From positions 14,043,501 to 14,107,500 of the forward strand of contig OX439041.1 in assembly GCA_949317995.1 (NCBI GenBank): 64,000 bases of DNA. Direction: 5' to 3'. Below are positions 26,472 through 56,300 of this stretch, piece after piece. Position numbers and translations under genes: made by a program. The stretch's first letter is position 1, and each line of letters begins with the position of its first letter. The DNA is from Acholoe squamosa. Taxonomy: Eukaryota > Annelida > Polychaeta > Phyllodocida > Polynoidae. The notes below the pieces were generated by a model that saw only the letters and a list, made by a program, of their open reading frames with translations, was not told where the DNA came from and made no database searches.

Positions 26472-28914
26472 TTGCATGGGGTAAAAACCCCTTACAGGGT
26501 AATTACACATAGGGTAAAGGTTCTGCGTGCTCGCCTTAGAGTGGATATAAAACCCTTTAAGTTTGGCATGCTCTCTGTAGAAACACCCCATAGAGTTTTC
26601 AATTTTTCTCCCAGGGTCAAAGGCGAAAGCGTCAACGAGGTGGACAGACTACAGAATCTCTTCAAGGTGGACGTAAAATTGTTTTCTCTGAAATGGTCGG
26701 GGAAGAAAAAAAAAAACGTCTGAGTGGTGAGAAGCAAAAAGTGTTACAGGAGAAACGTCATGAGCCTCAACATCTTCAATTCTCACGTAAGCCTCATCAC
26801 GAACATGGGTCTCTACCATCAAATTGACCCCTGCGAGGTATGCCATAAGCTGTTCACTAGCATTTACTCTCTCACAAGGCACAGGGGTGTGAAAAAAAAA
26901 TTGCACCATAGTGACTTTCAACTACAAAGGGGGCATCTATAAACCTGCCAGATCTGTTTTTCAACTCTTGGAGGAATTGGGCATAAAAACCCTCTCACAG
27001 TTGAAAATATACCCATATAAAATAGTCTTTGACTTTGAAAGTTTCTTCCTGAAGCACCACATTCAAGGAAAGGAAGCCAGCAACACCGTCATCGAAAAAA
27101 ACCACGTTCCCCTATCAGCCAGTGTCCCTTCGGATTTCCCAGATTACACCACGCCAGTGTGTTTTGTGCATCGTTCTAACAGACACAACGATCCCCTGGT
27201 GAAGTCGGTGCTGGAACACATAAACAATTTAGGTTGAAACATAGGCGGTACAGTGAAAGACGCTTTCAGAGAAACACTGGATGAGTTGGACAAGGTGATA
27301 GGGAGGGAGAAAAACATGGAGGAGAAAGCAGCTTGTCAAGTTTTTGACTAGGTGAGAAAAAGAAACAAAGCTCAGAGAAAGGATGAAAAAGAAATTGTTT
27401 GCGTACATCAAAAAATTGCCAGTCATTGGATTGAATTCCGGAAAATATGACCTGAACTTGATGAAGAAAGAGTTTATTCCTTATTTTCGAAATGGGACAA
27501 GCAGGAAGTGAAAACCATCAAAATGTTTTCACTTCCTAGATCTATTCAACTACCTGGCTCCAGGCTATTCTTACGCCAACTGCCTGAAAGCCTTACTCGA
27601 AGGGAAAGTGGCCAAGGGCTATTTCCTCTACGAGTGGATGGACGACGTGCTAGAGTTGGAAAACAAACAACTGCCGCCCAGAACGGCTCTCTACAGTTCT
27701 CTGACGGGCACGTGTATATCTGGCAAGGAGTATGAAACTTGCCAACCACATGGTCTGAACACAAGATGCAGTCCATGAGGGACTACTTTGTGTATTACAA
27801 CAACTTGGACGTGGCTCCCTCTGTGGAAGCTGTCAAGTTTGTTTGATGTTTTTTCATAGAGCGAGGTGTAGACATGTTCAAAGATGGCTTAAACTTGCCC
27901 GGTCTCACCTTGAAGTTCCTCTTTGAAAACACTTCTCCCAACGCTGCAGCGTATGTTCATTTGGGTGAGCAAGAAAAGGATGTGCACAACTTGCTGAGAA
28001 AGAACATCTTCGGAGGTCCTTCTATCATCTTCCACAGACACCACAAGAGTGGACAAACTCAAATAAGGGGGAAAAAATACAGGGTGGAAAGCAAGGTGTG
28101 CAGACACATCTTGGTCGTGGATGCCAACAGCCTCTACCTGAAGTGTATGGGGGAAGCGCACTGCTCAGGCTAGGTGGTACACCGCAGAGAGAACGACTTT
28201 CGAGCTGTCTGCAGTCAACAGGTCAGCTTTTCCACCACGGAATGGTTGCGTTACCGATTGCTCTTTGAGGACAAGAAAATACTGTACCAATACAATTACG
28301 GCGAGGTGAAACTTGCATGGAAACTTGTCAGAGTAGACGGCTTCTCACCTGCAGATGAGACGGTTTATAAATCAATTACACAGGTGTTGTTGGCATGGTC
28401 ACTTTTGTCATTTGACCAAGTCTATTCTTAAATCTCCCAACGGGCAAGCGTGGATGGGGAAAAAGGCTAAGAACACAGCTCAAATCAGCGCCTACCTCAA
28501 GACGTTAGGGTACAAAGTGGTGGAAAAGTATGCATGTCAGTGGCTGAAAGAAAGAGAGAGCGAAGAATGAGTGAGTGAGTGAGTAATAGATGTTTAATGC
28601 CAATTTCGACACCTGAGGTCATATTCATGGCAAGAACTACATTAGACAATTTGATAGAGGAATGTATCAGTGCCCACGCATATGTGCACCACACACATAT
28701 GAGGGAATAGGAAAGAGGAGAAATAGACCCTTTTAAGTGGCCTAGGGAAACCTGAGCGAAGAATGCAAGGTGAAAAAGGGGCAGTGGTTCGTAAAAAGAC
28801 CCCCTTGTTCAGGTAGAACCAAAGCGGAGATTCTCAAAGGTGTGATGGACCGTTCCCTTTTCGGACTGATTCATGATTTTTTTGCTGTGTATAAAATAAA
28901 ATAAACAAGGGTTT
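26472..28914 (+). pseudogene. Polinton protein-primed DNA polymerase B, truncated and interrupted
   Basis: Pieces in order on plus: the N-terminal region (TPHRVFNFSPRVKGESVNEV, 26580-26640), a zinc-finger-like CEVCHKLFTSIYSLTRHRG (26835-26890), the exonuclease motif KIVFDFESFF (about 27020-27050) with NHVPLSASV, and FNYLAPGYSYANCLKALLEG (27545). KDGLNLPGLTLKFLFE and GGPSIIFHRHHKSGQTQIRG (27880-28070) follow, then polymerase motif A (VVDANSLYL, 28110-28140) and an HGHFCHLTK-type box (28395-28420). Stops and frame changes occur between most pieces. A SINE-like insertion splits the gene at 28570-28753, after which the frame resumes (CKVKKGQWFVKRP ... RSLFGLIHDFF) until TAA at about 28914. The C-terminal palm, with the DTDS-type motif, is missing, so the gene was cut by a deletion before the terminal repeat. 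Confidence 0.88.
28570..28753 (-). mobile_element. SINE-like insertion with 12-bp target-site duplication
   Basis: 184 bp flanked by GAGCGAAGAATG at 28558-28569 and 28754-28765. On the minus strand it ends in CATTAAACATCTATTACTC followed by (ACTC)n, a tail typical of LINE-mobilised short elements. A diverged copy of the same sequence lies at 47139-47310. No clear A/B box was found, so a LINE 3' fragment is an alternative. Confidence 0.8.
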
Positions 28915-32345: not shown

Positions 32346-33760
32346 TAGTACACAAGAGAGACCAAATACTACCAATTACAACAAACGGAATGTTTTGGTA
32401 ACTATGGTTAAACTGACCAATAAATTTCATGTCCTTAACTGAAAGTCTTCACTGATTTATAAGTATTCAGGAAATGCAATACAGAGACAATATCAAAAGA
32501 TAAGATCAAAATAACACATGGGCTGATCAACTAAGTGATATAATTGTGAAATAATGTAAAATCTTCAAATAGTTCTGGGCACAAAAAGGTTAAGAGATTA
32601 TGGTCAGTTCTCAGACAAATGTGTCTAGTATCCATGAAAACAAACAAGCAAATTTCAAAGACCTCACAACACAGACCTCTTTCCCCAGAATTTAGGTTCT
32701 TCCATCACTTATTATTATTTGTAATTCACTAGAGATGATAAATAATAGAAACACCAGAGCTGCAGATGGTCCATTGATTAGTCTTTATTCCTCATACGGA
32801 AAGAGTTAGAAAGTCACCTCCATTTAGTGCTTTTTCAGAATGGAATATGATACTTTCCCCTTCATTCCCTCAGTAATTAATATCACGATTGGAGTTTTTA
32901 AACTCAATTTGTTTAGAATAGGTCAGATAAAAGTATCAAGCCAAAGGCCAACATATTAATTTAATTGTCTAGGACTACCTCCAAATGCTTTCATATAGTC
33001 CATGTACACTGAGCATACAATTGATAAATATATTTGCTTATATAATGTTTGTTCAATATAATAAACTACTAAATTGAAATTGAATTGACGTATTTTATAC
33101 AACCTTCACAAGTCACTCTTATCTTCACCAAAGCTATGTGCCTTAAATAACAAAAGGGCACAGTTGAAGTTAGTCTCTCTTTGGAAAGAAATGGAAATGT
33201 GATTTTGTCCAGGTCACAAAAAAGACAATCTGGGTGATTCCTGTGAACTGCCCCACCTTTGGGGGTCTGGGGCCAAACATGACAAACATCTTAAGACTTT
33301 ATTTTATTGATAACCCTATATCTTGGCTGTATGAAAAGGTCCATTCAAGTCATTAACTCCCAGGATGTCAGTTTTTATCACAGTTGCAGTAAAAAGGTAT
33401 AATTTGTGTAACGCGCTTGATCGATATAACTTCTTATGCATAGAACTTCATCAATAATGTCTCTGTGATTACCATATTGCATGTCCAAACTTGTATAGTA
33501 GTTATGAATAAGTGTACCAAAAATTAGGACTGAGTCTTGAAAACTTTTGAAAATATGAGACATAACTTTTTAAGAAAATTGAGATTTTTCAAAAATTTCT
33601 AACACAAAACCTTAACTTTACTCTCACAAGCTTAATATGCATTGGGTATGCATGTAATTCAAGTTATTATGTCTTCATTGTCTATATTTTCTTAAACAAT
33701 CATCATTCTTCCATTCCTACATATTTTTTTTTATGTGAGCAGCTGTCCAAAATTGGCCAA
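32346..33760. other. Non-coding, AT-rich
   Basis: No gene recognised. TGTAACGCGCTTGATCGATA at about 33406-33425 is an inverted match to a part of the 382-bp unit that follows (GATCAAGCGCGTTACATACA). Confidence 0.5.
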
Positions 33761-34923
33761 AAACCAAGAAATGTACAATTAATACCTATTTGGGGTGTCC
33801 CGTATGCCTCGGAAAATAAAATTGCACTTTTTTGCGACTAATTTTTTTACATCAATCAAGCCAGAAGGTCCAAAAATTAACTAGGAGTATCCAAACAGGC
33901 CTAAAATACCAGCCACACATGTCTAGTAACATATTAGATAGCAGTAGTACAGCTCAGATAACTCTCAGGTTGCCCACAGCCAATGAAGCAATACCATGTC
34001 AAATGCCCTCCGCGTAGGCGGATACCGATCAAGCGCGTTACATACAGTCACTCATAGATAGAGGCTCCATAGAGGTACTTAGACCTTTCATATCATAATG
34101 CTGCTTTATACACAACTACTTAAGCAATGGGACTACTGTTTAAAACCAAGAAATGTACAATTAATACCTATTTGGGGTGTCCCGTATGCCTCGGAAAATA
34201 AAATTGCACCTTTTTGCGACTAATTTTTTTACATCAATCAAGCCAGAAGGTCCAAAAATTAACTAGGAGTATCCAAACAGGCCTAAAATACCAGCCACAC
34301 ATGTCTAGTAACATATTAGATAGCAGTAGTACAGCTCAGATAACTCTCAGGTTGCCCACAGCCAATGAAGCAATACCATGTCAAATGCCCTCCGCGTAGG
34401 CGGATACCGATCAAGCGCGTTACATACAGTCACTCATAGATAGAGGCTCCATAGAGGTACTTAGACCTTTCATATCATAATGCTGCTTTATACACAACTA
34501 CTTAAGCAATGGGACTACTGTTTAAAACCAAGAAATGTACAATTAATACCTATTTGGGGTGTCCCGTATGCCTCGGAAAATAAAATTGCACTTTTTTGCG
34601 ACTAATTTTTTTACATCAATCAAGCCAGAAGGTCAAAAAATTAGCTAGGAGTATCTAAACAGGTCTAAAATACCAGCCACACATGTCTAGTAACATATTA
34701 AATAGCAGTAGTACAGCTCAGATAACTCTCAGGTTGCCCACAGCCAATGAAGCAATACCATGTCAAATGCCCTCCGCGTAGGCGGATACAGATCAAGCGC
34801 GTTACATACAGTCACTCATAGATAGAGGCTCCATAGAGATACTTAGACCTTTCATATCATAATGCTGCTTTATACACAACTACTTAAGCAATGGGACTAC
34901 TGTTTAACACCAAGAAATGTACA
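33761..34923. repeat. 382-bp tandem repeat, three full units plus junction stub
   Basis: Units start AAACCAAGAAATGTACAATT at 33761, 34143 and 34525. A fourth begins at 34907 and is cut at 34923, where Polinton sequence starts. Copies are almost identical. A 61-codon frame repeated in each unit has no coding signal. Confidence 0.93.
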
Positions 34924-35584
34924 TTTTATGCAGTTCCTCTACCGGAACCGGGAGAGAGTATTGGGGAGAAGGGCCAGTCAGATCTATGACCTCTACCTGT
35001 GAATACCCCCCTTGGTGAGCAGGTAAAGGTGTCCCTTGTGTTAAATCCACCACTTTAATGGGGTTGACTGCTGGTGATGACGATGTGAGGTCTATGACCT
35101 CTATTGGACTGACCTGGGGAGAAGGTTCCTCCGGAGTTACTGGCGAGTAAGTGGCGGACGTAGGTGCTTCAGTGGGGGGCTGGTAGTTCAAAGGTGCCGG
35201 GGGATTGATGAATTCAGTGTCAAAATCGCCGTCGCCAGCTTCCTGAGGAGTGCGATCCCGGACGCGATCCAGGAAATCAGTGATTTCGCCATGAAGAGCT
35301 GCAAGAGCGGCTTCCTGTTCTCCTGCATCAGGCACTTCAGTTGGAAGCCGAGCGGGAGTTGCAGGTGGTTTATCAGCTGAGGCTGGAGAGGTGGGAGGAG
35401 GGGCGACGCCCGACGTCTTTTTCACTGTCTGTTTAGGTGTGGGAACAGTCAGTGGAGCCAGTTTTTTAGCTGCTACTCTCCTGACACTAAGTCCCGTCTT
35501 CATGCGACCAGGCATTGTTCTCCTTAAAGATGAAAGGGTGGCAGGGCTGGAAGGTGCAGGAGCAGGACGGCGAACAGCAGACAA
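34904..35584 (-). CDS. Disordered protein with three SUMO-interacting motifs, C terminus cut by satellite junction
   Basis: From ATG 35584 on minus, 226 residues. The first ~80 are basic and Ala/Pro-rich (MSAVRRPAPAPSS, RRVAAKKLAP). A short predicted helix follows (EAALAALHGEITDFLDRVRDR). The last third has three copies of a SIM-type motif: IEVIDLTSS (residues about 159-167), IKVVDLTQG (about 174-182) and VEVIDLTGP (about 194-202). V-I-D-L-T is the classical SUMO-interacting core, and tandem copies are known to bind poly-SUMO (for example RNF4). No RING or protease domain is visible. The final ~6 codons lie in the satellite at 34904-34923, so a C-terminal domain may have been lost. A CTATAAAG box sits 43 nt upstream. 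Function is inferred: targeting SUMOylated host proteins or bodies. Confidence 0.7.
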   Translation of the reverse strand: MSAVRRPAPAPSSPATLSSLRRTMPGRMKTGLSVRRVAAKKLAPLTVPTPKQTVKKTSGVAPPPTSPASADKPPATPARLPTEVPDAGEQEAALAALHGEITDFLDRVRDRTPQEAGDGDFDTEFINPPAPLNYQPPTEAPTSATYSPVTPEEPSPQVSPIEVIDLTSSSPAVNPIKVVDLTQGTPLPAHQGGYSQVEVIDLTGPSPQYSLPVPVEELHKMYISWC

Positions 35585-35913: not shown

Positions 35914-36570
35914 ATGGCTAACTGTTATCCTTTGCCTTTGTCTTTGACCGTAGGTCACAAAAGGCATCAGGAGGTGTTTATTTCAGACATCAGGAGGGGC
36001 GTAGAAGAAGGTAAGGTGTGGGCTGTGTGGAAATTCTGTCCTGAAAATTTCAACAGGGATCTTTACATCCCTCCTAACTGTAACTTCAAACAATGCTTCT
36101 TGCACAACCAAACCACTGCATTGGTTCCTAGTGGACCCTCTGTGAAAAAACTTATCTCAGAAAATGGGGAAAGTTTTTTTTCAGGTGTTCTTTTGGGACA
36201 TGGTGCCATGGTACACTTGATGTCAAGGCATTCCATTTCCTCTGGAAGTTCAAAAGAATTCATCTTAGACAGACAAAAACCCTTTTTTCTCAGGGATCAA
36301 CCTTTGGGGGCAGGACCTGGTAATTCAGTTTTCATCGATTCTACTATGGTGAAGGCTTTGATTAAAGCCACTTTACTTCACCCAGACAAAATTACACACT
36401 CTCTAGGTTCGAAAATTTTCTATGAAAGAGGATTCAGGACAGAGATTGGACACAATTACCATGGGTGCTGTCATGTTGTGAGAGTTATAACTGAAATAAC
36501 TGCCTCCCATGAAAAAGGTCAGCTCAAGGTGGTAACAGCCTACCCCGTATCTCATTTTTGGTCCTCCTAA
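35914..36570 (+). CDS. Polinton accessory protein, C terminus BECR-ribonuclease-like (tentative)
   Basis: 218 residues from ATG 35914 (MANCYPLPLSLTVGHK); an upstream GTG at 35860 is in frame but less likely. I do not recognise the N-terminal two thirds, which contain RDLYIPPNCNFKQCFLHN and VKALIKATLLHPDKI. The end (FRTEIGHNYHGCCHVVRVIT ... QLKVVTAYPVSHF) has the pattern G-x-H followed by two strands and a final TAYP. That pattern recalls the C-terminal strands of Barnase-EndoU-ColicinE5/D-RelE (BECR) metal-independent RNases. This is a pattern resemblance only. The frame is intact. It is the first gene of the rightward accessory block. Confidence 0.6.
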   Translation: MANCYPLPLSLTVGHKRHQEVFISDIRRGVEEGKVWAVWKFCPENFNRDLYIPPNCNFKQCFLHNQTTALVPSGPSVKKLISENGESFFSGVLLGHGAMVHLMSRHSISSGSSKEFILDRQKPFFLRDQPLGAGPGNSVFIDSTMVKALIKATLLHPDKITHSLGSKIFYERGFRTEIGHNYHGCCHVVRVITEITASHEKGQLKVVTAYPVSHFWSS

Positions 36571-36802: not shown

Positions 36803-37426
36803 ATGTCGCGTTACTCCCTGCAGCGTGTATTAGAACAACGTCACCCCGACGACACTCAAGTTCTGACGTACGTCAGGGAAAGAAAGGAAATTATGTGCTG
36901 CTCTTCAAGCTGTTTCAGGTATGTGTGCAAATACTTGAAAGAAACTGTTCTTCACCGGAAAAAATTAAACTTAGTTTTTTCTTCAGTTGAATCAAGTTTT
37001 ACATCCAAAGACAGAAAAACCTTGAGAAAAATGGTTTTGAGTCATAACTTGTCAAAATTTTCAGCGGTGGAAACCTTGGGTTATGCCCTAAAGCATGGAA
37101 GAAAGGGAAAGGGCCCACGGAAAAACCCCTTCCATTGGGAAGCATTGAAAGCGGCAGAAGAGCATCACGCCAAAGAAAATCCCCCCCAACTTAACCAGCG
37201 TCTTGATTTCTTCATGTCTATTTTGGACCTTCTAGCTGAGTGCTTAGAAACCAAAACTTTGTTTTCCTCCTGCCCCATATTTCACATCCCATCATCGTCC
37301 CTGGATCGTTTCAGTGTTGAGGAGAAACAAAAAGTGTGGTTTTATCTGGCTATGTGGTGCACCCAGCTTATCTCCCTTACTCACTTTTTTCACCACAATC
37401 AGCTCGCTTTACACTCAACATCATAA
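36803..37426 (+). CDS. Hypothetical helical Polinton accessory protein
   Basis: 207 residues from ATG 36803, intact. Not recognised. The composition is mixed and mostly helical, with a Cys-rich patch (MCCSSSCFRYVCKYL), a basic stretch (LKHGRKGKGPRKNPFHW) and two hydrophobic helices near the end (FMSILDLLAECLE, WFYLAMWCTQLISLTHFF). Its place between the RNase-like and death-domain genes suggests the same accessory module. An all-helical signalling fold or a DNA-binding protein are both open. Confidence 0.6.
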   Translation: MSRYSLQRVLEQRHPDDTQVLTYVRERKEIMCCSSSCFRYVCKYLKETVLHRKKLNLVFSSVESSFTSKDRKTLRKMVLSHNLSKFSAVETLGYALKHGRKGKGPRKNPFHWEALKAAEEHHAKENPPQLNQRLDFFMSILDLLAECLETKTLFSSCPIFHIPSSSLDRFSVEEKQKVWFYLAMWCTQLISLTHFFHHNQLALHSTS

Positions 37427-37448: not shown

Positions 37449-37795
37449 GATGTAACAGGCTGACCTAAAGAGGGGGAAGGTAATGGAAGAGTAATATAGG
37501 ACAGGGTAGAATAGGGTAGGGTAATATAGGGTAGAGTAGGGTAGGGTAGGGTAGGGTAGGGTAGGGTAGGGATGGGTTGGGGTGGGCTTAAAAACTATGG
37601 GGTGGGGGGGTGGGGGCACCCCTCAAGTATGGGGGGTTTGGGGCTTGTTGGCCCGGGCTGGTCGCCCAAATAACCCACCTAACCCACCCACCCACCTAAA
37701 CTACCCACCCACCTACCCTACCCTACCCTACCCTACCCTACACTACCCTACCCTATATAAGTTTACTGTATGCTTCCTAGCCTGTCATAACCTAC
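37449..37795. repeat. Fold-back insertion of (GGGTA)n and (TACCC)n arms
   Basis: Left arm 37491-37571 is a run of GGGTA units; right arm 37713-37755 is a run of TACCC units. Outside these, GTAACAGGCTGACC on the left mirrors TAGCCTGTCATAACC on the right. The roughly 140-bp centre is G-rich on the left half and C-rich on the right. The structure can form a long hairpin and G-quadruplex-type folds. It separates the 36803 and 37842 genes. Confidence 0.75.
37753..37761 (+). promoter_or_regulatory. TATA box of the death-domain gene
   Basis: CTATATAAG, 81 nt before ATG 37842, directly abutting the right arm of the fold-back insertion. Confidence 0.45.
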
Positions 37796-37841: not shown

Positions 37842-38471
37842 ATGGAGTTTCACCTTTTGGACGAGTTGTTATTCAAGATCAGTGAAAAAATATCGGAAAA
37901 AGACTACCCTCGATTAGAGGTTTATCTAGGACTCAGACTAAGTTTAATGGATTACATGGAAGAAACACCATCTCTTCGTTCTATGGGGAGAGAAATGCTT
38001 ATATCATGGAACAGAAAGAACGTGCGTTGCAAGTGGATGGTATTAAGACATGCATTAAGTGACATAGGTCGTTACGATCTCTCTGAATATTGCAGATGGT
38101 ACATGCAGTATTACGACGTAGTGGACCATTGTGAAATACCTCCAGAAGAGTGGAAAGTTGATACTTTGTTCGTAAACCTGGCAGACAAGTTAAAGATGAT
38201 TGACTGGAGAAAACTGGGAAGACAACTGGGGTTAACCGAGCACGAACTTGATGTCATTACCTCCCCTGTTCCAGGGAGAAAAGGTGTCACAAATCCTGTT
38301 TTCGAAGTCCTTATGGTGTGGAAGCATAGAGAAATATCTCATCCAAGTTGTCTTATAGCAAGTTTGAACAACATGGGGCTTTTTGACGTAGCTCTTTACG
38401 TGGAAGGATTAAGAGAGGGCTTTTCTTACTTAAAAGAGGCCGAGGTGGCTCCTTTGGTCACTTTGGTTTAA
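37842..38471 (+). CDS. Tandem death-domain protein of a Polinton
   Basis: 209 residues from ATG 37842. Two copies of a death-fold six-helix pattern are visible. The first, about residues 5-85: LLFKISEKISEKDYPRLEVYL, GLRLSLMDYMEE, REMLISWNR, then MVLRHALSDIGRYDLSEYC. The second, about residues 100-195: LFVNLADKLKMIDWRKLGRQL, GLTEHELDVI, FEVLMVWKHRE, then LIASLNNMGLFDVALYVEGL. Each shows the death-domain signature of W/Y-x2-L-x3-LGL, a Trp in helix 5 and a final L-x2-AL-x-x-hG-x-x-D. No kinase, caspase or membrane segment is present, so it would be an adaptor- or decoy-type molecule in the cytoplasm. The frame is intact although the next gene is dead. Host capture is likely; DED or CARD assignment instead of DD is the alternative. 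Confidence 0.75.
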   Translation: MEFHLLDELLFKISEKISEKDYPRLEVYLGLRLSLMDYMEETPSLRSMGREMLISWNRKNVRCKWMVLRHALSDIGRYDLSEYCRWYMQYYDVVDHCEIPPEEWKVDTLFVNLADKLKMIDWRKLGRQLGLTEHELDVITSPVPGRKGVTNPVFEVLMVWKHREISHPSCLIASLNNMGLFDVALYVEGLREGFSYLKEAEVAPLVTLV

Positions 38472-38485
38472 GATTTCATCCAACA

Positions 38486-39410
38486 TGGATCACAAGGAAA
38501 AGGAGATTATTTTTGACCCACGTCTACAAAGCCCCTTCACTATGATTATAGCTGGACCTACTTCTTGTTGAAAAAGTCAACTTGTTTTCAAGTTGATTAA
38601 AGGTGTAGATGAGCTAGTAAGGGAGTGGTCATTATTCATCAACAGGGGGGGGGTGGTGGGTTTGAGGGGGGGGCGTAAAATTTTCAGACCCCTCCCGAGG
38701 GGGGGGCTAAAAAAATTTTGACCCCTCTTGAGGGGGGGGCTAAAAAAATTCACCCTCTTTTTAGCAAAAAAGCCCGCGTGCTACTATAGATCAAAGAGGG
38801 GCGCGAAAACTCTCCGCGCCTCCGGCGCGGGGGGGGCGCAGAAAATTTTGACTGCCGTCGAGGGGGGGGCGTAAAAAATTTTCGCGCATCCGCGCGAAAA
38901 CCCACCACCCCCCCCTGTTGATAAATAATGACCACTCCCTAACTCCAAAAATACACGACATATACTACTGCTACAGTCAATGGCAAGATGGATTCGACGA
39001 AATGGTTAAGTTGGGGGTTAAGTTCAACTAAGGTCTTCTTTCAGAAGACTTTTTGTTTGAGGATAAAAGAGACGTGACTAAACATGGACTGGTCATAATA
39101 GACGACCTTATGGATCCCGAGTATGTTCCCACCATAATGAAGCTTTTCACTGTGGGCTCTCACCATCGCAGTTTAAGTGTAATTTTTATTACTCAAAACT
39201 TTTTTTAACAATCCTGCCTTCAGAACATTGAGCTTAAATGCACACTACCTAGTTGTTTTTAAAAACCCTAGAGACATGAGTCAAATAGGACACATCAGCA
39301 AACAGGCCTTTCCTGGACAGAAATCCTTTTTGACGGAGGTATATAACTCAGAAACCAAAGAGAAACATTCATACATCCTATTGGACTTTAAGCAGAGCAC
39401 AGGGTAAGGA
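38486..39410 (+). pseudogene. Polinton packaging ATPase, interrupted by a MITE
   Basis: Starts MDHKEKEIIFDPRLQSPF at 38486. Walker A (IIAGPTSC then KS) has TGA in place of the invariant Gly codon at about 38567. A MITE follows the codons for VDELV. Beyond it come the middle part (QDGFDEMVKLGVKF, a TAA, then FEDKRDVTKHG), Walker B (LVIIDDL), YVPTIMKLFTVGSHHRSLSVIFITQ, a frameshift at a T7 run (about 39201-39207), and KNPRDMSQIGHISKQAFPGQ to the end near 39405. The protein would pump DNA into the capsid; this copy cannot. Homologous to the remnant at 1-620. Confidence 0.9.
38619..38935. mobile_element. MITE with long inverted ends and TAA target-site duplication (PIF/Harbinger-like)
   Basis: Termini GGGAGTGGTCATTATTCATC ... 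and ... TAAATAATGACCACTCCC continue inward as G-rich and C-rich tracts for about 40 bp with one or two mismatches. TAA flanks both sides. Codons of the ATPase on either side are in the same frame if the element and one TAA are discounted, so the insertion point is exact. A 3-bp TWA duplication is characteristic of PIF/Harbinger. The interior has several G8-type runs and TTTTTAG/CTAAAAAA repeats and no transposase. Confidence 0.85.
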
Positions 39411-39846: not shown

Positions 39847-40791
39847 ATGTCTTATTCAAGGATGGCCCTCGTAAGGGCGGATCTTGTTCCCCGAGAAAAA
39901 AACCCTTCTATTGTTACTTCTACCTCTCCTCCCCAGCCTGGACCTAGTGTTCAAGACCAGTACTACAGCACTCAACTTTTAAGAGAAGGTTTAACTCCTG
40001 ATTCCAGCCTGGTTCAAGTCCTAATCCACCTTCAAAGTAAAGCACATGAGGTGCTTAACTCTCCTAACCTCAAACTGAAGGAAAAGTTAAGACAGTACAA
40101 TCAACTTATGATAAAGTCGGGAATTTTAACTAAAAAAGCCAAGGCCTTAGGAGAACATAGGGAAGGGACCTATCCTGGTCGAGAAGTAGGGCAAGGACCT
40201 GCAGCAGCAGCAGCTAGGGGTGTGAACAATTCTTTAGAAGACACCAACGACGGCAACGACGATGACGACACTTTCACAGAGACTAGAGACGTTCCACAAC
40301 TTTCTGACGATTCAGACGGAGAGAGTGTAGACGAAGTCAAAGGGGGGGAAGGTCCTGGACCTCGTGCAAGAGACAACACAGTGGGTATGGACGCCGACAT
40401 AAAAGAAAGAATACCCGCAACTTACAGAACGACTGCTAAAAATCTCTACAGAGAATTATCTCGTCACGGAAGTCAGATATTGAATTGGAACAGAGACGGA
40501 GAAATATATGTTAACAGGGAACGTGTGCCTGGAACTGACATAACAGATTTGTTAGCTTTTGCTGCCAGACCAAAGTCTTTGAAAAAGGACCAACCTAAAG
40601 GAAGCCAGCTCTTCATAAGATCAGTTAAAAGGTTGAACCCCACCTTAAAATTTGTCAAAAACAAGTCGGCTTTTGCAGGGCACAGTGCTTCTTTTGCTGC
40701 CAGTCCCTTAAAGAGAGCATCCCCTATCAAGAAGAGGAAAGTAAGTCAAAAAGGAACCGGATGTAAGTTTATATGGCGCACAAGGCTTTGA
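39847..40791 (+). CDS. Polinton virion-associated protein (YRTTAKNL family)
   Basis: 314 residues from ATG 39847, intact. N-terminal Pro-rich leader, then a helical part (DSSLVQVLIHLQSKAHEVL ... LKEKLRQYNQLMIKSG). A Gly/Ala-rich and acidic linker (DDDDTFTETRD, DDSDGESVDEVKGG) follows. The conserved C-terminal domain is ATYRTTAKNLYRELSRHG, ILNWNRDGEIYVNRERVPGTDI and DLLAFAARP. That last block recurs in uncharacterised metazoan Polinton proteins. A basic tail (SPLKRASPIKKRK) resembles a nuclear localisation signal. It overlaps the integrase start by 19 nt. Role unknown; core or assembly protein is likely from context. Confidence 0.7.
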   Translation: MSYSRMALVRADLVPREKNPSIVTSTSPPQPGPSVQDQYYSTQLLREGLTPDSSLVQVLIHLQSKAHEVLNSPNLKLKEKLRQYNQLMIKSGILTKKAKALGEHREGTYPGREVGQGPAAAAARGVNNSLEDTNDGNDDDDTFTETRDVPQLSDDSDGESVDEVKGGEGPGPRARDNTVGMDADIKERIPATYRTTAKNLYRELSRHGSQILNWNRDGEIYVNRERVPGTDITDLLAFAARPKSLKKDQPKGSQLFIRSVKRLNPTLKFVKNKSAFAGHSASFAASPLKRASPIKKRKVSQKGTGCKFIWRTRL

Positions 40792-41837
40792 AGAAAGATG
40801 TCCTCAGGTTTTACACAGATCCTGAACAACCTGGAAGTTTTACCAGTGTATCTAAACTTTAACGTCATCACTTCAAGAAAACAAAGAAAAAAAAACATAG
40901 AACAAGCTTTGGAAGATGTAGACGCATACACCAGACACAAACCTTACAAAAGAAGATTTCCTAGAAGAAAAACACAAACATGGGGCATAGACAAACAGTG
41001 GCAACTTGATCTCATAGACATGCGAGAATTTTCAAAGGAAAACAAAGGATACCAGTACATTCTAGCGGGAATAGACGTGTTTTCAAGGTATGGTTTTGGA
41101 CAACCTGTGAAAAGTAAGAGAGCTGATGACGTCACAGAGGCTTTAAAAAAAAATGAGCAAAGAAAGAAAACCTCAACAAATTCAAACTGACAAGGGCAAA
41201 GAGTTCGTCAACAAAATTTTCAAAAAATACTGTGAAGATCAAAACATCAATTTTTTCACAGGAGAAAACGACGACGTGAAGTGTGCCTTAGCCGAAAGGT
41301 TTAACTCTACTATACAAGGAAAAATGTGGAGATGTTTCTCTCATTTCAATAACTACAAATGGGTTGACTTGCTGCCTGACTTGGTTAAGTCCTACAATCT
41401 AACTTACCACAAAACCTTCGGAGCTGCCCCTTCAGACATAAATAAAGACAACTCAGAAGTCTTGTTTTACAGGTTGTACGATCAACCTCAAAAGAAAAAA
41501 GTTCCTGTCAAATCAAGTGCAAATGTTGAAAACAAAGAAAACATTTAACAGAGGGTACAAACCTAATTGGACTGAGGAAATATACACAGTCGACGATATT
41601 TCACCCAAAGGGTACCACCTCAAAGATCTCCTTGGAGAAGAGATAAAAGGAAGCTTCTACGAACCTGAAGTTCAGAAGGTGCAAGTCCGTCACGGAAGAA
41701 GCTACAACATAGAAAAAATAGTAAAATACAGAGGAAAAGGCAAGAAAAGAGAAGCCTTGATCAAGTGGAAGGGTTATGGAGACAAGTTTAACTCTTGGGA
41801 ACCTGTCAAGAACATAGACAAATGGCGTTTACCTTAA
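40773..41837 (+). pseudogene. Polinton integrase with C-terminal chromodomain, frame-broken
   Basis: Begins MAHKALKKDVLRFYTDPEQP at 40773. TAA at about 40860 and a shift at an A9 run (about 40888) precede DAYTRHKPYKRRFPRRK. The retroviral-type catalytic core has WQLDLIDM (first Asp), IQTDKGKEFVN (second Asp, after a shift at the A9 run 41145-41153) and CALAERFNST (Glu), so the DDE triad is visible. After a third shift near 41530-41545 comes YTVDDISPKGYHLKD and a chromodomain: YNIEKIVKYRGKGKKREALI, KWKGYGDKFNSWEP. It would insert element DNA, with the chromodomain steering to methylated histone tails. Two of the shifts sit in long A runs, so sequencing error is possible for those. Confidence 0.92.
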
Positions 41838-43158
41838 CTTTACCTAGTAACTCGTCTATGAACGTGTTTCCTGACAACACTTTAACCAGTTACAACACAA
41901 TTTTGGCAGAATACATTAACTCTCCTACTCAGTTAGAGTGTGCTCTTCAAGAAATAACCTGTCCTACCACGTGGTACAACGTTAAAGAAGAACCCATTCT
42001 CTTGGCAGAGGGAGAAAACGACCTGAAAAACAACCTCCGCACTGTAGTAGCTTTATTAAAAAAACGCAGAAGAGAATTTTTTCCTCTGGGAAAACCAGGA
42101 GCCCATAGTGTCTTCAGTAGATCTTCAAGCTCTACATAGAATCTATCAGCCCAATCTGCTTTGAAGAGAGGAGTAAAAATAACAAAAAACCTACGTCATG
42201 TCGACCCTGTGGGACTGACTGAAACCATTCCTCCTGCTGGTCCTGAAAGTGAAAGTCCACAAACTCCTGCTGCTGCGACTGAAACGCCATCTGGAGGATT
42301 CACTCCTAACCAACCGACGCCAGAAAAGGAGGAGAAGGAAGAGGAGAAGGATAAGGGGGAAGGTGGCACGGCAGGCAGAGAGAAGAGGGAAATATCGCCA
42401 GCTGTGGCTGAAGTGATGTCTATGGATGAGAGGGGAAAAGGTCTGTTTCTTTTTTCGAAGAAAATGCCGTCTTCACAGACTCTACTCATGTTTCTCCTCT
42501 GTCTCCCAGTCAGTTACAGGCTGTGAAAATATATACACGCTTCAAAGAAATAAGCAGATACCTCTCTAAGTATTACTTCAAGGAAGGAAGTACCTACAAT
42601 ATGTTTGCCTTAGAAGGTGTGAACCTGGAAAGCAACTCAGAGTTGATAGGATACTTGAACAGGACCATAAATAAACTACAGAGCATGTTGGTAAGAAAAC
42701 TAAGAAACTACAGGAAAAACAACAAAGCCACCCTGTTTCACTACAACAAATATACAATGAAAAGTGTAGTTTCCTTGCCTCCTGGTGTGGTCATGCAACT
42801 CCCAGAAAACTTAGGGAAACAATTAGGTTTCGACGGAAGTGTTTTCCTAAGTGGAAAAACACAAAGCCCCTACGTGGTAGACCTTCAGTACAAAAGTCGA
42901 TGTGCTTTTGTGTACTCTGACATAGTCAAGCACAGTCTTGTGGGTGATTCTAAAGCACCCCTTCTGAGGCAAATAAACATAAATCGCTACAATGGTGACA
43001 TGCAAACCATAAGTTTTCAGAACTTGATATATCTGCCAGTCACTAAAACCACCTTCAGACAAATAGGGATATACTTAAGAGACAAGACCGGGGAACCAAT
43101 ACCATTTGAAAGCGGATCAGTGTCGGTGGTACTTGCCTTCAGACCTCTTCTGGGATAG
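41822..43158 (+). pseudogene. Polinton penton (minor capsid, single jelly roll) with a long low-complexity insertion
   Basis: N terminus at ATG 41822: FTLTLPSNSSMNVFPDNTLT ... QEITCPTTWYNVKEEP, the hallmark start of Polinton penton proteins. After a stop at 42139 and a frame change, 42161-42440 is Pro/Glu/Lys-rich (PAGPESESPQTPAAATETP, EKEEKEEEKDKGEGG). From 42523 the jelly roll resumes: YYFKEGSTYNMFALEGVNL, FHYNKYTMKSVV, CAFVYSDIVKHSLVGDSKAP, PLLRQININRYNGDMQTISF, and TGEPIPFESGSVSVVLAF. The insertion is unusual for this family. It overlaps the integrase 3' end by 16 nt. In capsids this protein forms the fivefold vertices. Confidence 0.85.
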
Positions 43159-43482: not shown

Positions 43483-44793
43483 ATGAGTCTCATTCATCCC
43501 AAGGGCCAAGTATGTGCAGTAGGAGAACTAGATCTGCACGCCTTACCTGTCACTCAGAAGGACATTTTAAAGTGTCAATAAAGTGTCAATAATGCCCTTA
43601 CTCCACACACTGAAACTTTTGACTTCACCTTCGAACCAAGCAACCTGTACACAGACCTCTCAGAAACTGAGATGTACATGGAACTGGAAGCCGTGGCAGC
43701 CGATGGAACAACCCACCTTGCCGTCGACATAGAAGCTGCTCCAGTCAACAACTTGGCACACGCTCTCTTTGCATCCTGTCAGTTGCTTATAAACGGAGAG
43801 AAAGTCACCGGCAACAATGAAGACTATGGTCTCAAGGCCTACATATTGGACACAATTTGCTGCAACAAAGAAGACAAAGAGACTCGGCTGAAAGGATGTC
43901 AAAAGTACATGAAAGACACCTGTGGACACATGGAGACGAGAGGGGGCGCCAATGCAGGATGGACGGCACGGAGAGCAGAATTCAGTGCCCGCAACAAACA
44001 CGCCTTAGTCATGAGGCCCCACCTGGATTTGATTAAACAGTGCAAGGTACTGCCTCCGAACTGTGAAATCAAGTTCATCTTCGAAAAAAAATCAACCCAA
44101 TTACTACATGATGCAAGCAGCCGATCAAAACTACTTGATCAAAATCACCAAAGCTGAAATGTCACTTCTCCAAAAAAAGTGTCGACGACGAGGTGGTGAA
44201 AACTCACGTCAGCAGTGTGAGGAACCCACATTGGGGCCCTTTCAACTATCACAAAGCCATTGTGTAAAGTCACTAAACACACTTTGGACAGTGGCTCACA
44301 AGACTACAGTTGGACTCAACCTGACACTACTCAAATCCCCACCAGGATAGTCTTGTGTATGATAAAGGAAACAGCAGCTGCTGGGACTAAGACGGAAAAT
44401 ACTTTCAACTGCAGGCATTTCAACGTGAAGGAACTTTGCGTGAGATATAATGATCAGAAGTTTGAGTTGAAGACTGACTTCGAAACAGGCAACTGCATCA
44501 GAGCCTACAGTCAAATGTTCACAGACAGTGGGTTGTCGGCTTTGGGGCAAGACTGTGGCATAACTTTGGAAGATTTCAAAGGTGGGTATTCCTTCTTTGT
44601 TTTCAACCTCACCCCAGACAGAGCACCTGAAGACAGTCGTATAAATCTCATCAAGCAAGGAAAGCTGGGCATTTCCCTCAGGTTTGCCGCCCCGACTGCT
44701 CATGTCATATCTGCCGTCTTGTGTTCCTTCTACGACAACAACATCCAACTAACAGCTGACTGTCTTCCTGTCACAGACTACCACATGAACTAA
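43483..44793 (+). pseudogene. Polinton major capsid protein (double jelly roll), several breaks
   Basis: ATG 43483 starts MSLIHPKGQVCAVGELDLHA. TAA at about 43579 lies in a direct repeat of AAAGTGTCAAT. The core then reads LYTDLSETEMYMELEAVA, APVNNLAHALFASCQLLING and NEDYGLKAYILDTI, the N-terminal jelly-roll signature of Polinton capsids. Shifts occur at an A8 run (about 44086-44093), at an A7 run (about 44174-44180) and near 44260. Between and after them are NYYMMQAADQNYLIKITKAE, NPHWGPFNYHKAI and the second jelly roll (NVKELCVRYNDQKFELKTDF, YSFFVFNLTPDRAP, GKLGISLRFAAPTAHVISAV) to 44793. Length over the breaks is about 436 codons, normal for the family. Confidence 0.9.
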
Positions 44794-44798
44794 GAAGA

Positions 44799-45275
44799 AT
44801 GAGAACTTCAGACATTACAGCTGCACTGGGAAACCATCCACACACAAGGCGTTTCTACCTTGGAACTTTTGCCAGTAATCAATGTCCTAAAAAACCAATT
44901 CCTTCTATGTGCTTCGTCAGTAACACAGATCCAAGTTCTAAACCTGGACAGCACTGGGTGGCCTTTTACATTTCTCATGAAGGGAATGTGTTCTACTTTG
45001 ATCCCTATGGTTTACCTCCATTAACTATATATCACCAGAGGTTCATGCAGAAGTCGTCAGATGGTCACAGGTCTTTCAGCAGAAAACAAGTACAAAACTT
45101 TTACGCTAAAACGTGTGAAGCGCACTGCATTAACTTCCTTATACAGACATGTCGGACCAAGGACCCACACCACACTGTAAGAAGGTTTTCTCAGGTGCCC
45201 TTCAACTTAATGGACAAAATAGTAAGTCCCTTGCTGAGGAAAAGAGAAAAGAAGAGGAGATGGACTTCGAAATGA
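44799..45275 (+). CDS. Polinton adenain-like cysteine protease
   Basis: 158 residues from ATG 44799, five bases after the capsid stop; intact. Catalytic His in PGQHWVAFYI (about residue 50), acidic partner in FYFDPYGLPP (about residue 68), and nucleophile Cys in TCEAHCINFLIQT (about residue 110). The usual spacing of the adenovirus-type maturation protease is kept. The C terminus is basic (LLRKREKKRRW) and overlaps the next frame by 16 nt. Cleaves capsid and core precursors during virion maturation. It is the only core virion enzyme in this copy without a break. Confidence 0.9.
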   Translation: MRTSDITAALGNHPHTRRFYLGTFASNQCPKKPIPSMCFVSNTDPSSKPGQHWVAFYISHEGNVFYFDPYGLPPLTIYHQRFMQKSSDGHRSFSRKQVQNFYAKTCEAHCINFLIQTCRTKDPHHTVRRFSQVPFNLMDKIVSPLLRKREKKRRWTSK

Positions 45276-50150: not shown

Positions 50151-52094
50151 TTGACGGCCCCCATTCACAATACAACACCATACAACACCATACAACACCA
50201 TACAACACCAGTACCAAACCATACAACACCATACATACAACACGATACAACACCAGTACAACACCATACAACACCATACAACACCAGTTCGACACCATAC
50301 AACACCATACAACACCAGTACCGTACCACACCATACAACACCATACAACACCAGTACAACACCATACAACACCAGAACCACACCATACATACAACACCAT
50401 ACAACACCATACAACACCAGTACAACACCATACAACACCATACAACACCAGTACCACACCATACATACAACAGCAGTACAACACCATACAACACCATACA
50501 ACACCATACAACACCAGTACGACACCATACAACACCATACAACACCAGTACGACACCATACAACACCATACATACAACACCATACAGCACCATACCACAC
50601 CAGCACAACACCGTACAACACCAGTACGACACCGAACAACACCATACAACACCAATACCACACCATACAACGCCAGTACCACACCATACAACACAATTAC
50701 CACACCATACAACACCATACAACACCATACAACACCAGTACGACACCATACAACACTATACAACACCAGTACCACACCAAACATACAACACCAGTACCAC
50801 ACCATACATACAACACCAGTACAACACCATACTACACCATACAACACCATACAACACCAGTACCACACCATACAACACCATACAACGCCAGTACCACACC
50901 ATACAACACCAGTACCTCACCATACAACACCATACAACACCAGTACGACACCATACAACACCATACAACACCAGTACCACACCATACAACACCATACAAC
51001 GCCAGTACGACACCATACAACACCGGTACGACACCATACAACACCATACAACACCAGTACGACACCATACAACACCATACAACACCATACAACACCATAC
51101 AACACCAGTACGACACCATACAACACCATACAACACCAGTGCGACACCATACAACACCATACAACACCAGTACGACACCATACGACACCATACAACACCA
51201 TACAACACCAGTACAACACCATACAACACCATACAACACCAGTACGACACCATACAACACCAGTACCACACCATACATAAAACACCAGTACAACACCATA
51301 CAACACCATACAACACCAGTATGACACCATACAACACCATACAACACCAGTACGACACCATACAACACCATACAACACCATACATACAACACCATACAAC
51401 ACCATACCACACCAGCACAACACCATACAACACCAGTACCACACCATACAACACCAGTACCACACCATACAACACCATACAACGCCAGTACGACACCATA
51501 CAACACCAGTACGACACCATACAACACCATACAACACCAGTACGACACCATACAACACCATACAACACCAGTACAACACCATACAACACCATACAACACC
51601 ATACAACACCAGTACGACACCATACAACACCATACATACAACACCATACAACACCATACCACAGCAGTATAACACCATACAACACCAGTACGACACCATA
51701 CAACACCATACAACACCAGTACGACACCATACATACAACACCATACAACACCATACCACACCAGTACAACACCATACAACACCAGTATGACACCATACAA
51801 CACCATACAACACCATACAACACCAGTACCACACCAGTACCACACCATACAACACCAATACCACACCAGTACAACACCATACAAAACCATACATACAACA
51901 CCATACAACACTATACAACACCATACAACACCAGTACGACACCATACAGCACCAGTACCACACCAGTACCACACCATACATACAACACCATACAACACCA
52001 TACAACACCATACAACACCATACAACACCAGTACAACACCATACAACACCATACAACACCATACATACAACACCATACAACACCAGTACAACAC
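50151..52094. repeat. 10-bp minisatellite, orientation ACAACACCAT
   Basis: About 1.94 kb of (ACAACACCAT)n with interspersed ACAACACCAGTACG/ACAACACCAGTACC and CATACATACAAC variants. Long open frames on both strands are produced by the repeat and are not genes. Confidence 0.97.
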
Positions 52095-53325
52095 ATGGTG
52101 TGGTACTGGTATGGTATGGTGTCGTACTGGTGTCGTACTGGTGTTGTATGGTGTGGTATGGTGTGGTACTGGTGTTGTATGGTGTTGTATGGTGTTGTAC
52201 TGGTGTTGTATGGTGTTGTACTGGTGTGGTTTGGTGTTGTATGGTGTTGTATGTATGGTGTTGTATGGTGTTGTACTGGTGTTGTATGGTGTTGTATGGT
52301 GTTGTACTGGTGTTGTATGGTGTTGTATGGTGTTGTACTTGTGCCGTATGGTGTTGTATGTATGGTGTTGTATGGTGTGGTATGGTGTTGTATGGTGTTG
52401 TATGGTGTTGTATTGTGTTGTACTGGTGTTGTATGGTGTTGTTTGGTGTTGTATGGTCTTGTATGTATGGTGTTGTATGGTGTTGTACTGGTGTTGTATG
52501 GTGTTGTATGTTGTTGTATGGTGTTGTATGGTGTTGTACTGGTGTTGTATGGTGTTGTATGTATGGTGTTGTATGGTGTTGTATGGTGTTGTATGGTGTT
52601 GTATGGTGTTGTACTGGTGTTGTATGGTGTTGTATGGTGTTGTATGGTGTCGTACTGGTGTTGAATGGTGTTGTATGGTGTTGTACTGGTGTTGTATGGT
52701 GTTGTATGGTGTTGTATGGTGTCGTACTGGTGTTGAATGGTGTTGTATGGTGTTGTATGGTGTTGTACTGGTGTGGTTTGGTGTTGTATGGTGTTGTATG
52801 GTGTTGTATGGTGTTGTATGGTATTGTATGGTGTTGTATGTATGGTGTTGTATGGTGTTGTACTGGTGTTGTATGGTGTTGTATGGTGTTGTATGGTGTC
52901 GTACTGGTGTTGAATGGTGTTGTATGGTGTTGTATGGTGTTGTACTGGTGTGGTTTGGTGTTGTATGGTGTTGTATGGTGTGGTACTGGCGTTGTATGGT
53001 GTTGTATGGTGTGGTACTGGTGTTGTATGATGTTGTATGGTGTCGTACTGGTGTTGTATGGTGTTGTATGGTGTGGTACTGGTGTTGTATGGTGCAGTAT
53101 GGTGTTGTATGGTGTTGTATGGTGTTGTACTGGTGTTGTATGTATGGTGTGGTACTGGTGTTGTATGTATGGTGTGGTACTGGTGTTGTATAGTGTTGTA
53201 TGGTGTCGTACTGGTGTTGTATGGTGTTGTATGGTGTTGTATGGTGTGGTACTTGTGTTGTATGGTGTGGTACTGGCGTTGTATGGTGTTGTACTGGTGT
53301 GGTATGGTGTGGTACTGGGGTTGTA
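52095..53325. repeat. Same minisatellite inverted, orientation ATGGTGTTGT
   Basis: At the junction ACAACACATGGTGTGG (about 52086-52101) the repeat switches to its reverse complement for about 1.23 kb, giving an inverted repeat with essentially no spacer. Confidence 0.97.
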
Positions 53326-56300
53326 TTTGAAAAGGTTCTTTGAAAATGTTGAAAAATGGGTTAGCATAAAATGATTTTCAAGTATTTCGGCCATCTGTCA
53401 TTTCGGCCATGTGTCATTTCGGCCAAATGACATTTCGGCTAAATGTCTTTTAGGCCATACATTTTTCGGCCATGTGTCATGGGGCTATAAGTCGCAGGGC
53501 TACTTGGCTTATAGGCCATAGGACTGGAACCCGTTTGAGAGTGCAGCAACTGGTTGTGCGGTGCACTGCGCCCTTAACCTTCAATACATACATCTTAAAT
53601 ATGAATTATGTAGGTCAGATGACATGCCTCTGGGGGCATTTCTTAACAACCTATGACCGCTACCCTGCAACTCGTAGTGGGAACCCTTAACATAATGACA
53701 TTATACATTATAGTAGGGATTATATTGTGTTTGCAACACTACGACTGCTCTACCAAACTCTATGTAATTACTACATTAGGTAATGATCGCACAGAGCAGT
53801 CACTGGACTGTACCTGCGATCACTGGCACTAACCTTTAAGTTGTCAATAAGTCATAGTGGCTCTAATTATGCAGTTGTAGTCCCTTAAGAAATAGCCTTC
53901 ATATTTTTTTTAAACAATACTGGTGTAAGTTGCTGTCAATGCAAATGCTACAGTGGTCTATATAACCCCTTTCAATTGGGGTGGAGAGTGTAGTGTAAGC
54001 AGGGACCATTTAGTATCAACTAAGTGAGAGGTGATGTATTGTGAAGAAAGCAACAATTTCTGTGCTCTTTATTTTGCACTGTACATATTTTCGTTGATAA
54101 GCTTCGCGAATGTATGTCTTTGCTGAAGACTTTGGAATATGTAAGGACAGGGACAAAATAATTGGACTTGGGATGGCATAAAGAGGCGCGGGAGGGGGGT
54201 GGGTGTTTAAAGGCATTTAGTGAAACTATTGCAGACAATACAATAGCTATTACTTCTAATACCCTTTCAATTAGGACAACTGATTAACAACAGAATAGCC
54301 GATGCCTTATAGATGAATGTGTTTCTAAAGGACTTTTCATAGTGTGAATGAAATAAGGGCTGGTAAATTGTTTTTTTTTAAAAGATAGTAACTCCCCGTC
54401 AAAATGATTTATATTTATGTAAATACTTGGGGTAAACCCGGCTCTATATATTCTCATGTACATTTTTTGTGGTATAACCCAATTTTCCAACATACAATGT
54501 ATGTGACCAATAATCATGAATTGTCCAGATTTGGCCTGCCAGGGGGGTCAACAAAGGTTTTAGGGTACATAATAGTACAGGTGTTAGGGGTTACAGTCCA
54601 TATATGTGCGTAGTGTTGTACTGGTGTTGTATGGTGTTGTACTGGTGTGGTTTGGTGTTGTATGGTGTTGTATGTATGGTGTTGTATGGTGTTGTACTGG
54701 TGTTGTATGGTGTTGTATGGTGTTGTACTGGTGTTGTATGGTGTTGTATGGTGTTGTATGGTGTTGTACTGGTGTCGTATGGTGTTGTATGTATGGTGTT
54801 GTGTGGTGTTGTATGGTGTTGTATGGTGTTGTATGGTGTTGTATGGTGTTGTATTGTAGTGTACTGGTGTTGTATGGTGTTGTATGGTGTTGTATGTATG
54901 GTGTTGTATGGTGTTGTACTGGTGTTGTATGGTGTTGTATGTTGTTGTATGGTGTTGTATGGTGTTGTATGGTGTTGTATGGTGTTGTATGTATGGTGTT
55001 GTATGGTGTTGTATGGTGTTGTATGGTGTTGTATGGTGTTGTACTGGTGTTGTATGGTGTTGTATGGTGTTGTATGGTGTTGTACTGGTGTTGTATGGTG
55101 TTGTATGGTGTTGTATGGTGTTGTATGGTGTTGTATAGTGTTGTATGGTGTTGTACTGGTGTTGTATGGTGTTGTATGGTGTTGTATGGTGTTGTACTGG
55201 TGTTGTATGGTGTTGTATGGTGTTGTATGGTGTCGTACTGGTGTTGAATGGTGTTGTATGGTGTTGTATGGTGTTGTACTGGTGTGGTTTGGTGTTGTAT
55301 GGTGTTGTATGGTGTTGTATGGTGTTGTATGGTGTTGTATGTATGGTGTTGTATGGTGTTGTACTGGTGTTGTATGGTGTTGTATGGTGTTGTATGGTGT
55401 CGTACTGGTGTTGAATGGTGTTGTATGGTGTTGTATGGTGTTGTACTGGTGTGGTTTGGTGTTGTATCGTGTTGTATGGTGTGGTACTGGCATTGTATGG
55501 TGTTGTATGGTGTCGTACTGGTGTTGTATGGTGTTGTATGGTGTCGTACTGGTGTTGTATGGTGTTGTATGGTGTGGTACTGGTGTTGTATGGTGTGGTA
55601 CTGGCGTTGTATGGTGTTGTATGGTGTGGTACTGGTGTTGTTTGGTGTTGTATGGTGTTGTATGGTGTTGTACTGGTGTTGTATGTTTGCTGTGGTACTG
55701 GTGTTGTATGAATTGTGTGGTACTGGTGTTGTATGGTGTCGTACTGGTGTTGTATGGTGTTGTATGGTGTTGTATGGTGTGGTACTTGTGTTGTATGGTG
55801 TGGTACTGGCGTTGTATGGTATTGTACTGGTGTGGTATGGTGTGGTACTGGGGTTGTATTTGAAAAGGTTCTTTGAAAATGTTGAAAAATGGGTTAGCAT
55901 AAAATGATTTTCAAGTATTTCGGCCATCTGTCATTTCGGCCATGTGTCATTTCGGCCAAATGACATTTCGGCTAAATGTCTTTTAGGCCATACATTTTTC
56001 GGCCATGTGTCATGGGGCTATAAGTCGCAGGGCTACTTGGCTTATAGGCCATAGGACTGGAACCCGTTTGAGAGTGCAGCAACTGGTTGTGCGGTGCACT
56101 GCGCCCTTAACCTTCAATACATACATCTTAAATATGAATTATGTAGGTCAGATGACATGCCTCTGGGGGCATTTCTTAACAACCTATGACCGCTACCCTG
56201 CAACTCGTAGTGGGAACCCTTAACATAGTGACATTATACATTATAGTAGGGATTATATTGTGTTTGCAACACTACGACTGCTCTACCAAACTCTATGTAA

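Follow-up and report, generated by a model that had tools for sequence, protein, structure and literature searches.

What is an intact gene of two tandem death domains doing inside a decayed virus-like element of an annelid genome? The question arises in a 64,000-nucleotide stretch of Acholoe squamosa (assembly GCA_949317995.1, contig OX439041.1, forward-strand positions 14,043,501 to 14,107,500), referred to here as the window, where a first-pass annotation had placed such a gene between Polinton genes, had proposed that it was captured from a host apoptosis or innate-immune adaptor for use as decoy or activator, and had added that its intact frame might also reflect later host use. The analysis presented here assigns it to the accessory genes of an adintovirus-like Polinton family of high copy number, and suggests a role in disrupting host defences on the element's behalf.

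The gene occupies positions 37842-38471 of the plus strand as an open frame of 209 codons (226 from stop to stop), with a TATA-box-like TATATAAG, recognised by eye only, at 37754-37761 on the same strand, 81 bp 5' of its ATG. Its length is only moderately unusual, since a stop-free run of at least 226 codons occurred in 3 of 400 first-order random 30-kb sequences, and the decision therefore falls to homology. The whole 209-residue protein matches the Pfam family PF00531 (Death) in two stretches with 51.4 bits (E 1.2e-13; cut-off 22.6 bits), and no other family was matched at E 1 or better. Support is strong for the second domain (residues 113-184; 38178-38393, plus strand), where residues 101-197 alone reach 33.2 bits (E 5.7e-8; another cut E 8.7e-8), FADD is matched at E 3.6e-4, and an AF2 model built from a two-row alignment, with domain 1 as sole partner row, comprises six helices (5-20, 26-32, 37-44, 56-66, 72-81 and 85-100; pLDDT 75.6, pTM 0.68). 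It is moderate for the first (residues 12-82; 37875-38087, plus strand), where residues 1-110 alone score 22.5 bits (E 1.3e-4), marginally below the cut-off, and shorter cuts (residues 1-90, 1-95, 1-100 and 6-93) gave no Death match in Pfam; a BLASTP comparison of domain 1 with domain 2 returned no alignment.

In a seven-row alignment of the window protein, three near copies and three relatives of 21-25% identity, residues W56, W122, W160, L29, G30, D79 and L80 are invariant. Among PDB sequences the best match is FADD, at E 4.9e-4 for the window protein alone and E 9.1e-8 for the seven-row family profile, which also matches the death domains of ankyrin, THOC1, RIPK1 and PIDD, after FADD; Pfam found no DED in the window protein. 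The first-pass claims of an intact tandem death-fold gene and of conserved Trp, LGL and GRYDL-type positions are thus borne out by the open frame, the profile search and the invariant residues, while its expectation of six-helix bundles agrees with the model of domain 2 and is addressed for that domain only; a single-sequence structure model of the full-length protein was unusable (pLDDT 39.3). Overall, the death-domain fold can be assigned with high confidence, and a chance reading frame is ruled out by the Pfam match together with the dN/dS values and dispersed copies described below.

The surroundings of the gene are those of a Polinton. Only 13 bp separate its stop from the likely ATG of a packaging-ATPase gene (38485-39401, plus strand, start set by eye), which is broken by frame changes and, as the first-pass annotation had reported, by a stop and a MITE: the in-frame stop lies within the Walker A stretch, and the MITE was located by repeat analysis at about 38616-38944. 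This MITE has long inverted ends with TAA at either side and is PIF/Harbinger-like by eye. Beyond the ATPase follow, all on the plus strand, a small ORF, an intact conserved ORF (39847-40791, recognised from frames and sister copies), an integrase with a C-terminal chromodomain split into three frames (40792-41834), a penton or minor capsid gene in more than one frame (41825-43158), a major capsid protein (MCP) gene with in-frame stops (43489-44793) and an intact adenain-type protease gene (44799-45275).

Several of these identifications draw on a Polinton-like contig, L001, the one of three loci from a contig scan of other genomes that proved useful for comparison. Its order of ATPase, small gene, unknown gene, integrase, penton, further small gene, MCP and protease is, by tblastn, the gene order of the window block. 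The window integrase is 34-43% identical to that of L001 (E 9e-46) and matches Chromo at E 1.7e-9 and rve at E 7.4e-4, the latter below the cut-off; the penton gene has its relative in L001, as does the MCP gene (E 6e-25, with four stops in the match), and the protease has 22 homologues of up to 64% identity besides a Peptidase_C5 match below the cut-off (E 0.0043). L001 begins at its ATPase and is therefore uninformative on genes upstream of it; it is filed under a Candidatus Nomurabacteria MAG and probably misbinned. With ATPase, MCP, penton and adenain protease in one block and a retroviral-type integrase present, the first-pass placement of the gene among Polinton genes stands, and the death-domain gene is almost certainly Polinton cargo.

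Upstream of the death-domain gene lie three further accessory ORFs. The nearest is an intact DUF5662-like gene (36803-37426, plus strand; PF18907 E 3.8e-5, below the cut-off), which several families pair with the death-domain gene. It is preceded by an intact ORF named gpE here (35914-36570, plus strand), which was recognised from its frame and its dN/dS (0.248) and for which an assignment as an EndoU-type nuclease was dropped when Pfam gave no support, and by a minus-strand ORF (34904-35515, recognised from frames) with three (V/I)DLT motifs that resemble SUMO-interacting motifs (SIMs); gpE and this SIM-like ORF are both present in sister copies. A tandem repeat at 33760-34929, with a period of about 382 bp and units 97-98% identical, abuts the SIM-like ORF.

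Other parts of the window carry further remnants. Putative protein-primed DNA polymerase remnants at 26893-28567 (plus strand) were recognised by eye alone from their motifs; two pieces of this stretch gave no Pfam polymerase match, and an L002 polymerase piece gave no match at E 0.05. No inverted repeat of at least 40 nt brackets the gene block within 20000-50000, the window copy having decayed. A second, divergent Polinton ATPase lies at 1-560 (minus strand), where positions 16-294 are 36.5% identical to the L001 ATPase (E 9e-15, two stops), and inspection of its frames by eye found no adjoining death-domain ORF, so the cargo may not be universal among Polintons. At 7920-11569 the window also holds frames of a retroelement polymerase and integrase that look Gypsy-like by eye, and it contains a low-complexity satellite at 50151-55907 with long stop-free frames on both strands and halves of opposite strand skew.

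Searches of the genome (1.48 Gb, 63 contigs) place the window gene among many close copies. The DNA search yielded 762 first-look candidates, the best 40 of which correspond to 40 near-full-length places at 92-100% identity (window included), plus one partial; the protein search yielded 1889, and the best 150 scored (window included) are all close copies, 86-100% identical. Among these best 150 matches 134 are stop-free and 16 hold a stop, figures that are not copy numbers and in which the stop-free share is biased upward, since only the best candidates were scored. Neighbourhoods were read for 23 distinct copies besides the window's (27 loci, four of them repeating a copy), and the ATPase gene lies directly downstream in all 23, the DUF5662 gene upstream in 22; the exception is L008, in which the region of the death-domain and ATPase genes is duplicated in inverted orientation. 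Most sister copies show the ATPase match in a single frame, the window copy being among the decayed ones.

Linkage was also seen from the protease side. In 59 of the best 150 scored of 2120 protease candidates, a scored death-domain gene lies on the same strand 3.9-10.9 kb upstream (median 6.7 kb), against 1 downstream and 0.1 for random positions, each count being based on the best 150 of each gene's matches. Most of the best 150 of the 2120 protease matches carry one TGA. A host exon or domesticated single copy was rejected, with 150 scored matches alike and linked to Polinton genes; the first-pass annotation had stated that its reading would fall if homologues showed an ordinary host exon with no relation to the Polinton, and the copies proved dispersed and Polinton-linked instead. 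Individual death-domain copies do decay, as the 16 scored matches with a stop and the splitting of the gene between frames in L008 and L012 (two of 24 copies including the window's) indicate. One copy, L029 (G000:C16:47337454-47338071), lies within a 466-aa open frame and possibly represents a fusion with the following sequence.

The arrangement extends to divergent families of the same genome. A PF00531 search gave 1880 candidates, and the best 150 scored contain long runs of identical scores, dozens each for family A (45.9 bits) and family B (42.1 bits) and about twenty for family C (40.9 bits), alongside single host-like matches; 14 control genomes gave no PF00531 match. Families were assigned from scores and frame lengths, apart from the loci inspected, which comprise 21 of family A (10 translated), L064 of family B (L045 being alike) and L065 of family C. 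All three families encode tandem death-domain proteins of about 200 aa, 21-25% identical to the window's; one protein of each matched PF00531 in two stretches (56-61 bits) and also the related bacterial death-like model bDLD3, other matches falling below the cut-off.

A DUF5662 relative lies upstream in 20 of the 21 family-A loci and in the single B and C copies (for B, L064:728-1303, E 4e-23). The DUF5662 genes (window 36803-37426 and L064:728-1303) contain His/Asp motifs, HDLSK and HH in families A-C, which we take to recall HD-type hydrolases, and in family B an IDIVDLP-containing ORF precedes the DUF5662 gene. In families A-C dUTPase-like ORFs lie 3' of the death-domain gene (by Pfam in L064, L048 and L067, by eye in L065), in places more than one per locus. 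Directly upstream of the family-B copy is the end of a capsid gene (E 5e-9 to the window MCP), and upstream also an adenain protease (Peptidase_C5 24.7 bits, above the cut-off; E 9e-16 to the window protease); because these genes adjoin it, the family-B copy lies in a Polinton, where the DUF5662 and death-domain pair follows MCP and protease rather than preceding the ATPase. The short stretches read at families A and C contained no capsid genes.

The simplest explanation of the gene is that a death-domain adaptor was captured long ago from an animal host and retained by the Polintons thereafter, which would accord with the host-adaptor capture that the first-pass annotation had proposed: a death-fold protein in a Polinton stands in its favour, and no donor gene was found. 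No branch is starred in a tree built from 16 domains, which yielded no host gene as donor; within it the first domains of the four mobile families cluster (86/78), whereas the second domains do not form one group and include the host-like row L038 among them. In a set of 5.8 billion proteins the whole death-domain protein gave 323 candidates, none at E 0.01 or better, and domain 2 alone gave 22, none at E 10 or better. IMG/VR held no relatives of the death-domain protein, the integrase piece, the protease, the protease profile, the L001 integrase or the family-B protein, and an integrase DNA-pattern search there likewise returned no relatives, its two loci L004 and L005 being phage-like by eye.

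As to function, the accessory gene probably acts as a dominant-negative decoy. A Polinton ancestor would have acquired the tandem by capturing a death-domain adaptor of the host, or by fusing two domains of this kind, and its descendants would have kept it beside the DUF5662 gene; the protein would enter host death-domain assemblies, possibly of the FADD, IMD, PIDD or RIP-like kind, and the decoy would delay apoptosis or immune signalling during replication of the element. This proposal follows from the domain content, as a protein of two death domains and no other recognised domain would not pass the signal on. On balance, the protein is somewhat more likely an inhibitor than an activator or scaffold.

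The alternative that survives best, although it is unlikely, is a pro-death or pro-signalling activator, in which host complexes assemble around the tandem and apoptosis or NF-kB signalling is set off, for instance so that particles are released or the element's promoters are switched on. Two death domains without an inhibitor domain could indeed nucleate assembly as well, and PMC3352826 describes a TRADD-binding viral TRAF by which apoptosis through caspase-8 is induced in fish. Yet Pfam recognised no effector or recruiting domain, and a gene that kills, with at least 134 stop-free copies in the germline, would impose a cost unless its silencing were tight. Inhibition by a decoy remains the preferred reading.

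Among 20 intact copies (190 pairs) the pooled dN/dS of the death-domain gene is 0.214 (median 0.190), with similar values for domain 1 (0.218) and domain 2 (0.214), and with values of 1.03 and 1.40 in controls shifted by one or two bases. For the window copy against the other 19 it is 0.238, compared with a mean of 0.742 (range 0.598-0.948) in 500 runs of a neutral simulation, in which the window gene was mutated at random at the observed distances and transition counts. These values, and those of DUF5662 (0.335; 13 of 17 compared copies stop-free) and gpE (12 of 14 stop-free), come from copies of unchanged length taken from the best matches, so that the split L008 and L012 and the altered ends of L010 and L029 (four of 24 copies) were left out for the death-domain gene. 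Being well below the neutral expectation, they indicate that selection preserves the gene, as it does DUF5662 and gpE, during multiplication of the element.

Such constraint, comparable to that on two other element genes, would also suit a structural or replicative role, in which the death-fold protein serves particle or element assembly instead of acting on host signalling, and in the window family the gene does adjoin the ATPase. No such gene was seen by eye, however, beside the second, divergent ATPase of the window, and in one family-B copy it follows MCP and protease, which shows that the death-domain gene does not stay with the structural block; an assembly role accordingly appears improbable, more so than an activator.

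Domestication, in which the host has kept the locus for antiviral or signalling use, draws on a frame intact amid broken neighbours, the feature from which the first-pass annotation had suspected later host use. All four accessory ORFs of the window are intact, with a chance of 0.001-0.008, but the ORFs were chosen for intactness; at lesion rates of 1.9-2.7 per kb, which are rough and hand-counted, 630 bp would remain untouched with a probability of about 0.2-0.3, so that finding one frame intact next to a broken ATPase calls for no special explanation. With close copies dispersed and mostly stop-free among the best matches, linked to Polinton genes, adjacent to the ATPase throughout the copies read and under purifying selection in 20 of them, the suspicion loses its basis and domestication becomes very improbable.

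Comparison of sister copies, which form two groups, reveals a divergence peak over the death-domain gene. Between L015 of group 1 and six copies of group 2 (L022, L024, L029, L030, L032 and L033) the gene differs by 8.5-11.2%, compared with 2.1-2.9% for gpE, 2.8-3.9% for the ATPase, 2.4-3.5% for the integrase, 3.7-4.5% for DUF5662 and 4.7-5.7% for the 39847 ORF, with intermediate values for the SIM-like ORF (6.1-7.9%) and the spacers (3.9-9.3%); within group 1 its difference of 3.5-3.7% is unexceptional. Between groups the median dS is 0.20 over codons 1-70 and 0.40-0.42 over codons 71-209, and the median dN 0.02-0.08. The raised divergence at synonymous sites makes exchange with a diverged donor a likelier cause than rapid evolution of the protein, and the pattern suggests, at the level of sequence comparison, an allele exchange between element lineages. 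Competition between elements, with the protein blocking other Polintons or viruses (superinfection exclusion), is compatible with this peak and with the coexistence of two Polinton lineages, probably four, that carry such genes, but is hardly to be expected, as exchange can be neutral recombination and other stretches (the SIM-like ORF and some spacers) are raised too, at 6-9%.

In a broader and more tentative picture, the Polintons of this genome would possess tandem death-domain proteins of their own, a diversified family that forms an accessory toolkit with DUF5662, is common to divergent lineages at differing places in the gene order, has alleles that are apparently exchanged, and probably outnumbers the host's own death domains, as a lasting store of death-fold inhibitors or of material on which host innate immunity could draw. 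If the proposed role is true, the Polintons, although often treated as transposons, carry a mimic that targets one particular immune pathway and is preserved by purifying selection, in keeping with a virus-like existence under host defence. A mimic of two tandem death domains, as distinct from DED, PYRIN or Bcl-2, would offer a new means of finding out which death-domain complex protects invertebrate cells from large DNA elements, and DUF5662, as the partner gene, would be a candidate for acting jointly with the death-domain gene.

Among known systems, the nearest include the adintoviruses and Polintons (Mavericks) with host-like cargo, which share the same core gene set. Cell-death cargo is already known in this group, and the tandem death-domain gene is new as far as the literature searches reach: no report of a Polinton or Maverick with a death domain or FADD was found, with the founding adintovirus and nematode Maverick cargo papers lying outside their coverage, and the word 'death' occurs once only, in 'birth-death', in the main texts of PMC11071296, PMC11071308, PMC8097293 and PMC8363768. 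FADD and other death-domain adaptors (PF00531) resemble the window protein in the Death profile, the six-helix layout and the best PDB sequence match, and FADD differs from it in that the latter consists of two tandem death domains, has no DED and is encoded by a mobile element. Viral FLIPs are tandem DED proteins of herpes- and poxviruses that act as dominant-negative decoys, and share with it the design of a virus-borne protein of only two tandem death-fold domains. The window protein, carried by a Polinton instead of a herpes- or poxvirus, is no member of that family, because its domains are death domains and not DEDs, and the likeness lies in the proposed working only. ORF111L of ISKNV is likewise a virus-encoded mimic in a death-receptor pathway; it is a viral TRAF that binds TRADD and induces rather than blocks apoptosis (PMC3352826), and so differs from the Polinton protein in being TRAF-like where the latter is built of death domains, and in promoting the apoptosis that the proposed decoy would delay.
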